DNA of 63,103 nucleotides from positions 1 to 63,103 of the forward strand of contig JAHBWH010000027.1 in NCBI GenBank assembly GCA_019637115.1. The letters run 5' to 3'. Position 1 is the stretch's first letter. Every line of letters begins with the position of its first letter. A program made the translations under genes and the position numbers. The notes under the pieces are model-generated. The model did no database searches and had not been told where the DNA came from. It worked only from the letters and a program-made list of their open reading frames with translations. The DNA is from Myxococcales bacterium. GTDB taxonomy: Bacteria > Myxococcota_A > Polyangia > Polyangiales > Houyiibacteriaceae. This document shows, piece by piece, positions 31,283-35,312 of this stretch.

Positions 31283-33781
31283 ATGAATGACCTCCTCGCG
31301 GCGCTGCCGCCGCACCTGCGCGAGCGCGCGGCCTTCGTCGGTGAGCGTCGCCCCACGAAGCCGCGCTTCGTCGTCTATTGGATGCGCGTCGCGATGCGCG
31401 GGCACGACAACCCCGCGCTCGACGCCGCTTGCGCGCTCGCGCGGGCGCTCTCGCTGCCGGTCGCGGTCTATCAGGGGCTCTCCGAGCGCTACCCCTACGC
31501 GTCCGATCGACACCACACCTTCATCCTCGAGGGCGCCGCCGACGTCGCGCGCGAGCTCGGCGCGCGCGGCATCACCTACCTCTTCCACCTCGAGCGCGGC
31601 GCGCGTCGCCCAGCGCTCCGCTCGCTCGCGAAGGCGGCGGGGCTCGTCGTCGCGGACGCGATGCCGACCCCTCCGCTCCGGCGGATGACGGCGGCGCTCG
31701 CCGCGAAGGTCGCGACGATCGAGGTCGACGCGAGCTGCGTCGTGCCGATGTCGCTCTCGAAAGAAGCGCCGAGCCGCGCCTTCGTCTTCGCCGAGCGCAC
31801 CGCGCGCGAGCGCCACGCGCGCCTCGCCGCGCTCGCGGAGGCGGGCTGGCCGAGCGCGGGCTGGCCGAGCGCGGGCGAAGACGGGAGCGAAGACGGCGCG
31901 CGGTTCGTCCCGGCGGTCGACTTCGAGCCGGTCGACGTCGCGAGCCTCGACGACGCGGCGCGCGCGGCGCTCGTCGCCGCTTGCGACGTCGATCACGGCG
32001 TCGGTCCCGTGCGCGAGACGCGCGGCGGCGGCGAGGCTGGGTACGCACGGTGGCGTCGTTTCGTCGAGGACGGGGGGCTCGCGGGGTACGCGGCGTGGCG
32101 CGACGACCCGCTCGCCGACGGCGTCTCGCGCATGAGCGCGTACCTGCACTACGGCATGGTCTCGCCCTTTCGGCTGGCCGCCGAGGCCGCGCGCGCCCGC
32201 GACGCGGGCGCAGCGGGCGCCGAGAAGTTCCTCGACGAGCTGCTCACGTGGCGCGAGCTCGCGTGGCACGCCGCGGCGCACCTCGAGGACCTGGAGTCGC
32301 TCGGCGCGCTGCCGAAGTGGGCCCGCGACACCCTACGCGAGCACGAGGGGGACCCGCGCGAGCCGCGCTCCTGGGAGACGCTCGCGCGCGCGCGGACGGG
32401 GGACGCGCTCTGGGACGCGGCGCAGCGGTCGCTGCTGCGCTCCGGTGAGCTGCACAACAACGTGCGCATGACCTGGGGCAAGGCGGTCCTCGGTTGGACG
32501 CGGACGCCCAAGGAGGCGCTCGGCGTGCTCGTCGACCTGAACCACCGCTACGCGCTCGACGGACGCGATCCCGCGTCCTACGGCGGGCTGCTCTGGTGCC
32601 TCGGGCTCTTCGACCGGCCCTTCGAGCCGCCGACGCCCGTGCTCGGCAAGGTGCGGGCGCGCCCGACCGAAGCGCACGCGGCGCGCCTGGACGTCGAGCG
32701 CTACGCGGCGCGGACGAGCCGACCTTCGCGCGCCGCGCCTCCCTCGGTCGCCATCGTCGGCGCGGGGATCGCGGGGCTGAGCTGCGCGCGGACGCTGAAC
32801 GATCACGGCTGGCCGGTGCAGGTCTTCGACAAAGGACGGCGCGCGCCGGGGGGGCGGTGCTCGTCGCGCTGGGATGGCGAGAGCGAGTACGCGCGTTGGG
32901 TCGTCGATCACGGCGCGTCGCTGCTCGTGCCCGACGGGCCGCGCTTCCGTCGCCACCTGCGGAGCTGGGCGCAGGACGGGCTCGTCGCCCCGTGGGAGGG
33001 GCGCTTCGTCCGCTTCGAGGACGGGCGCGCGCGACCGGAGCAGGGACACGAGCGCTGGGTGGCGACGCCGACGATGAGCACGCTCGCGGCGCACCTCGCG
33101 GACGACGCGGACGTGACGCTCGACGTGCGCGTCGACCGCGTGGCGCGCGACGGCGAGCGGTGGCGCCTCTCGGGCGTGCGCGGGTCGGGGCCGCCTGGCT
33201 CTGGCCGCGCGGGCGAGCCCATCGACCTCGGCGCGTTCGACGTCGTCGTGATCGCCACGCCCGCGCCGCAGGCGGCGCCGCTGCTCGCTGCGGCGCCCTC
33301 GCTCGCTCTGCGGGCCGAGCACGTCGCGATGGATCCGTGCCTCGTCGCAATGGTCGCGTTCGAGCGCAGCGTGGAGCCGGGCTGGGACGCCGCCTTCGAT
33401 TCGACGGGCGAGCTGCAGTGGATGAGCCGCGAGTCGAGCAAGCCCGAGCGGCCGACCCGAGCCGACGACCCCGACGCGCTCGACGCGTGGGTGCTCCAAG
33501 CAGGTCCCGAGCTGAGCGAGGCGCTCCTCGAGCTGCCGGCCGACGCCTTCGCCGACGAGCTCCTCGCGCGCTTCGAGGCGCGCGTCGGTCCCCTGCCACG
33601 CGCGACGTGGCGACAGGGGCACCGCTGGCGCTACGCGCAGGTCAGCGACCCCGTCGGCGAGCCCTGCCTCTTCGACGTCGGCGCGCGCCTCGGCGCGTGT
33701 GGCGATTGGTGCCTCGGCCCGCGCCTCGAGGATGCCTTCGAGAGCGGCGTCGCGATGGCGGGCCGGGTGCTCGCGCTCTGA
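31283..33781 (+). CDS. Class II photolyase-like / FAD oxidoreductase fusion
   Basis: An 832-residue protein. Residues 1-480 resemble class II cyclobutane-dimer photolyases: VVYWMRVAMRGHDNPALDAA at the start, MSAYLHYGMVSPFRLAAEA, FLDELLTWRELAWHAA, and ALWDAAQRSLLRSGELHNNVRMTWGK then LDGRDPASYGGLLWCLGLF for FAD binding. After a short linker, residues 488-832 are a second flavoprotein: VAIVGAGIAGLSCARTLNDHG (dinucleotide fold), FDKGRRAPGGRCSSR, and a C-terminal GDWCLGPRLEDAFESG, as in renalase-like amine oxidases. No frameshift or stop lies between. Photolyases repair UV dimers with blue light; the oxidoreductase might reduce flavin or act in a linked reaction (inference). Confidence 0.87.
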   Translation: MNDLLAALPPHLRERAAFVGERRPTKPRFVVYWMRVAMRGHDNPALDAACALARALSLPVAVYQGLSERYPYASDRHHTFILEGAADVARELGARGITYLFHLERGARRPALRSLAKAAGLVVADAMPTPPLRRMTAALAAKVATIEVDASCVVPMSLSKEAPSRAFVFAERTARERHARLAALAEAGWPSAGWPSAGEDGSEDGARFVPAVDFEPVDVASLDDAARAALVAACDVDHGVGPVRETRGGGEAGYARWRRFVEDGGLAGYAAWRDDPLADGVSRMSAYLHYGMVSPFRLAAEAARARDAGAAGAEKFLDELLTWRELAWHAAAHLEDLESLGALPKWARDTLREHEGDPREPRSWETLARARTGDALWDAAQRSLLRSGELHNNVRMTWGKAVLGWTRTPKEALGVLVDLNHRYALDGRDPASYGGLLWCLGLFDRPFEPPTPVLGKVRARPTEAHAARLDVERYAARTSRPSRAAPPSVAIVGAGIAGLSCARTLNDHGWPVQVFDKGRRAPGGRCSSRWDGESEYARWVVDHGASLLVPDGPRFRRHLRSWAQDGLVAPWEGRFVRFEDGRARPEQGHERWVATPTMSTLAAHLADDADVTLDVRVDRVARDGERWRLSGVRGSGPPGSGRAGEPIDLGAFDVVVIATPAPQAAPLLAAAPSLALRAEHVAMDPCLVAMVAFERSVEPGWDAAFDSTGELQWMSRESSKPERPTRADDPDALDAWVLQAGPELSEALLELPADAFADELLARFEARVGPLPRATWRQGHRWRYAQVSDPVGEPCLFDVGARLGACGDWCLGPRLEDAFESGVAMAGRVLAL

Positions 33782-33821: not shown

Positions 33822-34970
33822 TCACGCCCAGGTCACGGTGGGGAAGGGGGGACCCGGGCGCGCGAGCCCGTAGCCCTGCACGTACGACACGCCGAGATCG
33901 ACGAGCGTGTCTCGCTCGGACTCCGTCTCGATGCCCTCCGCGACGACCTCCATGTCGAGGCCGCGGGCCAAGAGCGTGAGCGACGAGACCACCTCGCGCC
34001 GCACCGAGTCGGTGTCGACCCCGCGCACGAGCGACATGTCGATCTTCACGATCTCGGGCCTGACGCGAGCGAAGTAGCTCAGCCCCGCGTAGCCTGCGCC
34101 CAAGTCGTCGACGGCCACGCGATAGCCCAGCTCTCGCAGCGATCGCAGGCGCTGCTCGACGTCCGGCACCGACTCGAGCGACGCGCGCTCGGTGAGCTCG
34201 AGGACCACGCGGCGCGCGTGGCGGGCGAGCGGCGACGAGAGCTCGTAGAGCTCGGGATCCGCGAGGTCGGCGGGGTGCAGGTTCACGAAGAGCTGCCCCG
34301 TGGCCGGGCTCTCGGCGAGCTGGGCGGCTGCGATGCTGCGCACGCGCCGGCCGAGCTGGTGGAGCCCGCCTAGGCTCTCGGCCACCTCGAGCAGCGCGAG
34401 CGGCGAGGGGAAGCTCGGCTCGGAGCTCCGCATCAACGCCTCGTGTCCGATCGCCTCGCGCGTGCGGACGGAGACGATCGGCTGGAACACGAGCCGCAGC
34501 CCCGCGAGCCCTGCGCGGAAGCGCTCTTCCAGCGCGACCCGGTCGATCCAGCCGGTACGGTCGCGGGTCAGTCTTCGCAAGCGGGCCGCCTCTCCGACGA
34601 CCGCGCGGAGCACGTCCGCTTCCACGGGCTTGGCGAGGTAGCGGAACGCGCCGAGCTCGACGGCGACCGCGGCGCTCTCGAGGTGAGGCGCGCCGGTCAC
34701 GAAGATCACGGGCAGGTCGAGATCGTGCTCTCGGATCGCCCGCACCATGTCGAGGCCCGACATCCCGGGCATCGAGAGATCCGAGAGGACCACGTCGTAG
34801 CTCTCCCTCGCGATCGCTTCGAGCGCGCTCGCCCCGTCGGCCGCCCGGTCTACCGTCGCGCCAGTCGCGCGCAACATTCGGCAAAACGCGCTCGCGACGA
34901 GGTCGTCGTCGTCTACGACCAACACGCGGCTCCGCTCGAGCGCGGTACCCAACGACATCCCCTTCGTCAT
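33822..34970 (-). CDS. Response regulator with EAL domain (c-di-GMP phosphodiesterase)
   Basis: A 382-residue protein. The receiver domain (about 14-130) has D64 in VLSDLSMPG and a Lys in RYLAKPVEADVL. The EAL domain (about 148-380) keeps the catalytic set: HEALMR for EAL, NLHPADL, LELTE, the DDLGAGYAGLSYF loop, VKIDMSL, VAEGIETE and the Gln in YVQGYGLARP. It should hydrolyse cyclic di-GMP under phosphorylation control. ATG 34970 is chosen; the upstream extension is not conserved. No kinase is adjacent. It converges with the photolyase fusion 40 bp away. Confidence 0.93.
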   Translation of the reverse strand: MTKGMSLGTALERSRVLVVDDDDLVASAFCRMLRATGATVDRAADGASALEAIARESYDVVLSDLSMPGMSGLDMVRAIREHDLDLPVIFVTGAPHLESAAVAVELGAFRYLAKPVEADVLRAVVGEAARLRRLTRDRTGWIDRVALEERFRAGLAGLRLVFQPIVSVRTREAIGHEALMRSSEPSFPSPLALLEVAESLGGLHQLGRRVRSIAAAQLAESPATGQLFVNLHPADLADPELYELSSPLARHARRVVLELTERASLESVPDVEQRLRSLRELGYRVAVDDLGAGYAGLSYFARVRPEIVKIDMSLVRGVDTDSVRREVVSSLTLLARGLDMEVVAEGIETESERDTLVDLGVSYVQGYGLARPGPPFPTVTWA

Positions 34971-35312
34971 CCGAGACCCCTTGCCCGCAAACGCCCAACC
35001 AAACGCCTGCGACCCTAATCCCGGACGATAGTCGTGTTTGGGAAGAGCGTCGATGCTGCGCGGGTGTTCTCCCTCGTTTGGGGGAGACCGCGCCAACCCG
35101 CCTTGGCACATCGGCCTGCGGCGGCTCCGAGGAGCGGGACATGGTCGGCGTCCTCCGAGGTCCGCCCTACGGACGTGCGCCGCGGTTTGATCCGGGCATT
35201 GACCGGCCGACCATCGACCGACGCCGCGACGCTTGCGCAGCCTCGGCCATCATCCCTCCTCGCGGATGAACATGGTTTTGTCGCGACGGCGGGCGACCAG
35301 CTCACGCGCAGG
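34971..35312. other. Gap between radC and REC-EAL genes
   Basis: This 342-bp gap contains no supported gene. It should contain the REC-EAL promoter. It also holds a 17-bp sequence, GCCTCGGCCATCATCCC (35240-35256), repeated at 35320-35336 inside the radC 3' end. It may be a remnant of a duplicated radC tail. Confidence 0.4.

Follow-up and report, generated by a model that had tools for sequence, protein, structure and literature searches.

The substrates of characterized renalase are the 1,2- and 1,6-isomers of NAD(P)H, which it oxidizes, whereas normal 1,4-NAD(P)H is not a substrate; the isomers arise through nonspecific reduction of NAD(P)+, photochemical reduction included (PMC7660482, which cites Hoag et al. 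2015 for the bacterial enzyme). In Pseudomonas, a LitR/phrB cluster was previously found to be light inducible (PMC9758184), and RudS is treated in PMC11417400. For class II photolyases, the roles of individual residues of MmCPDII have been set out (PMC6126647, PMC5885780), and Asp428 and Arg441 are strictly conserved among the class II enzymes (PMC6126647). No open PMC paper was found to contain both “photolyase” and “renalase,” and a description of a fusion of the two was not found there. Judged on these open papers, the fusion reported here is provisionally regarded as undescribed, and the same provisional judgment applies to the subfamily of class II-type photolyases to which its N-terminal half belongs.

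The window, a stretch of 63,103 nucleotides from a Myxococcales bacterium (contig JAHBWH010000027.1), carries at 31283 to 33781 (+) an open reading frame of 832 codons, found to be uninterrupted on inspection. The sequence-only reading had proposed that this frame unites a class II photolyase with a renalase-like flavoprotein, and profile searches, PDB matches, and Foldseek bore this out. In the photolyase half (residues 1 to 478; 31283 to 32716, +), residues 28 to 477 matched the NCBIfam profile phr2 (TIGR00591) with an E value of 3.9e-87 and 293.5 bits, which does not reach the curated cutoff of 550 bits. The sub-cutoff score indicates membership of the same superfamily as a divergent subfamily. 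Class II photolyases in the PDB (8oet, 2xry) matched this half at E ~1e-47, while class I entries reached only 4e-10. By sequence, the N-terminal half is therefore classed as a class II CPD photolyase-type domain (residues ~28 to 478) of a distinct subfamily.

The renalase half (residues 489 to 832; 32747 to 33778, +) was identified from its conserved residues and its matches to bacterial renalases. With the full protein as the query, residues 489 to 830 matched 3kkj (E ~4e-44) and 4zcc (E 5e-42); with this half as the sole query, the values were 1.7e-44 and ~2e-42, respectively. The AlphaFold2 (AF2) model of the whole protein had a pLDDT of 93.4 and a pTM of 0.93. When it was searched with Foldseek, renalase 4zcc was recovered with a target-normalized TM score of 0.92 to 0.93 (rmsd, 2.0 to 2.2 Å) and the class II photolyases 3umv and 4cdn with 0.84 to 0.85. 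The C-terminal half is thus assigned, on homology, as a bacterial renalase. The second domain had earlier been read as an FAD/NAD-binding oxidoreductase, which holds in the specific sense of a renalase (the 2-/6-dihydro-NAD(P) oxidase family) and not in that of a generic NAD(P)H oxidoreductase.

A chance or assembly artifact was excluded because 80 full-length or near-full-length homologues, each in a single frame, were found in independent genomes. These came from a scan of GTDB species genomes, from which the 80 best loci were kept; all matched across both halves, with a few clipped at contig ends, so that at least 80 such fusions exist. The hosts were Planctomycetota (many of them Pirellulaceae), Myxococcota, Gemmatimonadota, Desulfobacterota (Desulfobacterales), and metagenome-assembled genomes labeled Alphaproteobacteria. 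The fusion was present in ~25/283 genomes of the Myxococcota sample and 11/195 of the Planctomycetota sample. No match to the fusion pattern was obtained in viral contigs, and plasmids yielded single domains only. Two fusion genes close to those of planctomycetes (L018 and L026) stand under the titles of Candidatus Kuenenia stuttgartiensis and Klebsiella pneumoniae MAGs, which look wrong. Among the matches listed, a solo class II paralogue co-occurred with the fusion in at least 15/25 Myxococcota and at least 7/11 Planctomycetota genomes, and some Myxococcota hosts had no other class II match. The genome of the window itself also carries an ordinary solo class II photolyase (G000:C13:25944-27410).

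Residue conservation in the photolyase half was counted over 94 fusions, using MmCPDII numbering after PMC6126647 and PMC5885780. Equivalents of R256, E301, W305, Q364, M379, W381, N403, W421, and D428 were present in 94/94 fusions and those of W360, W388, R429, and R441 in 91/94 each. The tryptophan electron chain, whose conservation had been named as a point to check, is present in the window protein as W377, W398, and W405 (32411 to 32497, +; W360, W381, and W388 of MmCPDII), with conservation of 91/94, 94/94, and 91/94, respectively. The CPD contacts R164, R256, N257, E301, W305, M379, and W421 were each kept in most fusions, R164 as Arg in 87/94 and N257 as Asn in 88/94. Of the lesion-contact residues, likewise named as a point to check, the window copy has most but carries Ala at the R164 position, where the alignment is less certain, and Asp at N257; its sister genus (L002) has Glu at the R164 position. 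In the bubble-intruding region, the window protein keeps the equivalents of D428, R429, and R441, and W431 is replaced by Phe, as in 82/94 fusions. Flavin-site, CPD-contact, and Trp-chain residues are thus conserved family-wide at the sequence level. On these family counts, set against the window substitutions at R164 and N257, the family looks repair competent and the window copy looks atypical, with one or two contacts lost.

Sixteen positions typical of the fused proteins set the subfamily apart from other class II enzymes, including the motif HNNxRMTWGK, which in the window protein reads HNNVRMTWGK (residues 391 to 400; 32453 to 32482, +) and lies amid the Trp chain. The motif HNNVRMTWGK was found in the fusions and in one unfused protein (L110:3818-5563, genome G058; a 582-amino-acid frame, 51% identical) and was absent from the other solo class II enzymes sampled. 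No renalase was found within the 10-kb locus of this unfused member. The idea that the fused-specific residues form the interface with the renalase half was rejected: 14/16 of them are also present in the unfused protein, so they mark a photolyase subfamily instead.

In the renalase half, the window protein retains G493, G495, G498, R525, G807, and D808, which belong to the GxGxxG, GGR, and C-terminal GD motifs; the GxGxxG FAD-binding motif occupies residues 493 to 498 (32759 to 32776, +). In the fusion alignment, GxGxxG, R525, P660, Q663, W782, G807, and D808 were kept. The window protein has S546, Q739, and L744 at positions that are Gln, His, and Trp in most renalases, fused or solo. Pairwise identities of the two halves correlated across fusions (r = 0.78), with a median of 40% for the renalase half versus 53% for the photolyase half, indicating that the renalase half evolves faster. 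With its unusual residues 546, 739, and 744 in this fast-evolving half, the renalase activity of the window protein could be altered.

The halves are joined by an interdomain linker of 14 amino acids (residues 475 to 488; 32705 to 32746, +). Its length was 14 in 83/94 fusions, 13 in 10/94, and 27 in a single protein, which comes from the sister genus of the window's bacterium; a number of other loops varied widely. The pTM was likewise 0.93 in an AF2 model of another fusion, from a planctomycete, that shares 45% identity with the window protein. Because the linker is near constant and both models reach this value, the halves are probably packed rigidly in a fixed arrangement. The fixed linker and the predicted packing suggest a closer coupling than co-expression alone would require.

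A quickly built photolyase-domain tree, with MmCPDII as the root, placed the fused domains in one clade (SH-aLRT, 100), which included the unfused L110. The tree of renalase sequences showed a weak interleaving of the fused with the solo ones, with nine changes. Several independent fusions were considered on account of this interleaving and set aside, since a single fused clade was compatible with the data (AU test, P = 0.516). The trees are most simply, though not conclusively, explained by one fusion long ago that later spread and whose halves rarely came apart again.

The sequence-only reading had also held that linked genes of the two types occur in bacteria. This was correct for renalase with class I phrB or with DPRP/FeS-type photolyase genes, but no adjacent pair of a separate class II photolyase and a separate renalase was found among the matches listed for 478 genomes (283 Myxococcota and 195 Planctomycetota, few candidates scored per genome). 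In ~10/40 Pseudomonadota genomes, a photolyase-family gene lay ~5 kb or less from a solo renalase, far above the ~0.24 expected by chance from the 93 photolyase-family genes in these genomes (63 PF03441 and 30 PF04244 matches). Nine of these cases came from the locus survey and the tenth from genome G857; 6/10, being Pseudomonas-type loci, do not count as independent cases. In the Pseudomonas-type loci, genes for renalase, RudS, LitR (MerR plus B12-binding), class I phrB, SnoaL, and SDR follow consecutively on one strand, and renalase 3kkj groups among these loci in the renalase tree. The cluster begins with the Pseudomonas renalase gene, as at L181:4819-10665 and comparable loci. Given this RudS-LitR-phrB context, the arrangement suggests a light-related role for bacterial renalase. 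In three other loci (L165, L207, and L214), a DPRP/FeS-type photolyase gene directly adjoins a solo renalase, and in L210 (G857:C11) a short PF03441 match in a ~295-amino-acid frame lies just upstream of one, possibly as a truncated or cryptochrome-like partner. Renalase is thus linked to class I photolyases in the Pseudomonas-type cluster, to DPRP/FeS-type photolyases by adjacency, and to a class II-type photolyase by fusion.

Around the fusion genes themselves, the neighbors that recurred among 94 loci, whose flanks were often short, were DPRP (15), SDR (13), class I-like photolyase (9), and DUF2805 (7); neither LitR nor RudS was found in these loci. Squalene/HpnE genes stood beside the fusion in 8/94 loci, all from Rhodopirellula and its kin. 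In these Rhodopirellula, Rubripirellula, and Stieleria loci (L034, L046, L053, L057, L070, L073, L080, and L082), the fusion gene is preceded on its own strand by a pair of genes of the squalene/phytoene synthase type and one for an HpnE-like amine oxidase, which almost abut or overlap it, and the fusion may be tied there to the synthesis of carotenoids or squalene. The flanking genes in the window included no light-related genes, and a promoter and terminator scan at the locus found nothing. A convergent response regulator-EAL gene (33822 to 35111, −) ends ~40 bases past the fusion gene, with no terminator-like site between the two.

We give about an even chance to the proposal that the fusion is a flavoprotein with two FAD sites and two functions in photodamage repair, acting on both DNA dimers and misreduced NAD(P)H isomers. 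The N-terminal half would cleave cyclobutane pyrimidine dimers by means of FADH− and blue or near-UV light, and the C-terminal half, by analogy with the renalase family, would oxidize 2- and 6-dihydro-NAD(P)H isomers to NAD(P)+, passing the electrons to O2. Because such isomers also arise photochemically, the two halves would handle two classes of light damage arising under the same conditions. In a tighter and speculative form, the renalase half would clear misreduced nicotinamide generated by the photolyase's own excited flavin. More tentatively, and with a rather low probability, the rigidly docked renalase may directly exchange electrons or a nicotinamide product with the flavin of the photolyase, either as a new means of photolyase activation or for removal of misreduced NAD(P)H that this flavin makes when excited. 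A built-in reductase that draws on NAD(P)H and supplies electrons to the FAD of the photolyase, so that this flavin stays as FADH−, would account for the 13- to 14-amino-acid linker in 93/94 fusions, for the FAD-type proteins in both halves, and for the fixed packing implied by a pTM of 0.93 in two members only 45% identical. The bifunctional reading is nevertheless favored over it because renalase uses the isomers and not 1,4-NAD(P)H. The intact Trp photoreduction chain, the solo renalases that accompany other photolyase classes (with two genes in between in the Pseudomonas-type clusters), and the unfused member that lacks a renalase in its locus likewise make a reductase unlikely. Of the two roles offered in the sequence-only reading, upkeep of the photolyase flavin by NAD(P)H is therefore weak, and action of the renalase on a product of light chemistry is the better fit.

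It is also improbable that the halves work independently and that fusion merely secures the co-expression of two light-stress enzymes without functional contact. Operons provide such co-regulation elsewhere, and the frequent solo class II paralogues in fusion-bearing genomes fit this explanation, but the linker is nearly constant in length although other loops vary, the predicted interdomain confidence is high, and a single clade has been retained across phyla with separation rare. Least probable of all is a protein that has left DNA repair for a cryptochrome-like role as a light-controlled redox enzyme or sensor. The distinctive subfamily residues (the HNN...T motif, K315, R460, and H465), Phe for W431 in most fusions, the missing R164 and N257 equivalents of the window copy, and the many hosts with a normal class II enzyme could all be read in this way. 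Against it, the family holds most of its CPD-contact residues without variation, the matches listed for some hosts include no further class II enzyme, and D428 (94/94) and R441 (91/94), which are strictly conserved in class II enzymes (PMC6126647), are kept.

The fusion bears on what bacterial renalase does physiologically and on why it occurs in light-inducible photolyase clusters. Its covalent and geometrically constrained form, kept across several phyla, spells out the functional link and allows it to be tested within one protein, and the fusion also marks out a subfamily of class II-type photolyases. Compared with the class II CPD photolyases (MmCPDII, 2xry and 2xrz; rice, 3umv), it agrees in fold, in FAD site, in Trp chain, and in most CPD contacts but differs in having HNNxRMTWGK where the known enzymes have (H/Q)NYxRM(L)WGK, in the subfamily residues Phe for W431, K315, H421, R460, and H465, and in its C-terminal renalase. 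With the Pseudomonas renalases (3kkj, 4zcc, 4zcd, and 5krq) it shares the fold, ~34% identity, the FAD-binding motif, and the conserved W/K-P-R and HRW motifs. Those enzymes are solo and clustered with RudS, LitR, and class I phrB, whereas here the renalase is fused to a class II-type photolyase, and the window protein departs from the usual Gln, His, and Trp of renalases with Ser, Gln, and Leu. The light-inducible LitR/PhrB cluster of Pseudomonas (PMC9758184), like the L181-type loci, likewise pairs renalase with photolyase genes; there the photolyase is of class I and the genes are separate, whereas the fusion loci combine a class II-type photolyase and renalase in one frame, with neither LitR nor RudS found beside it.
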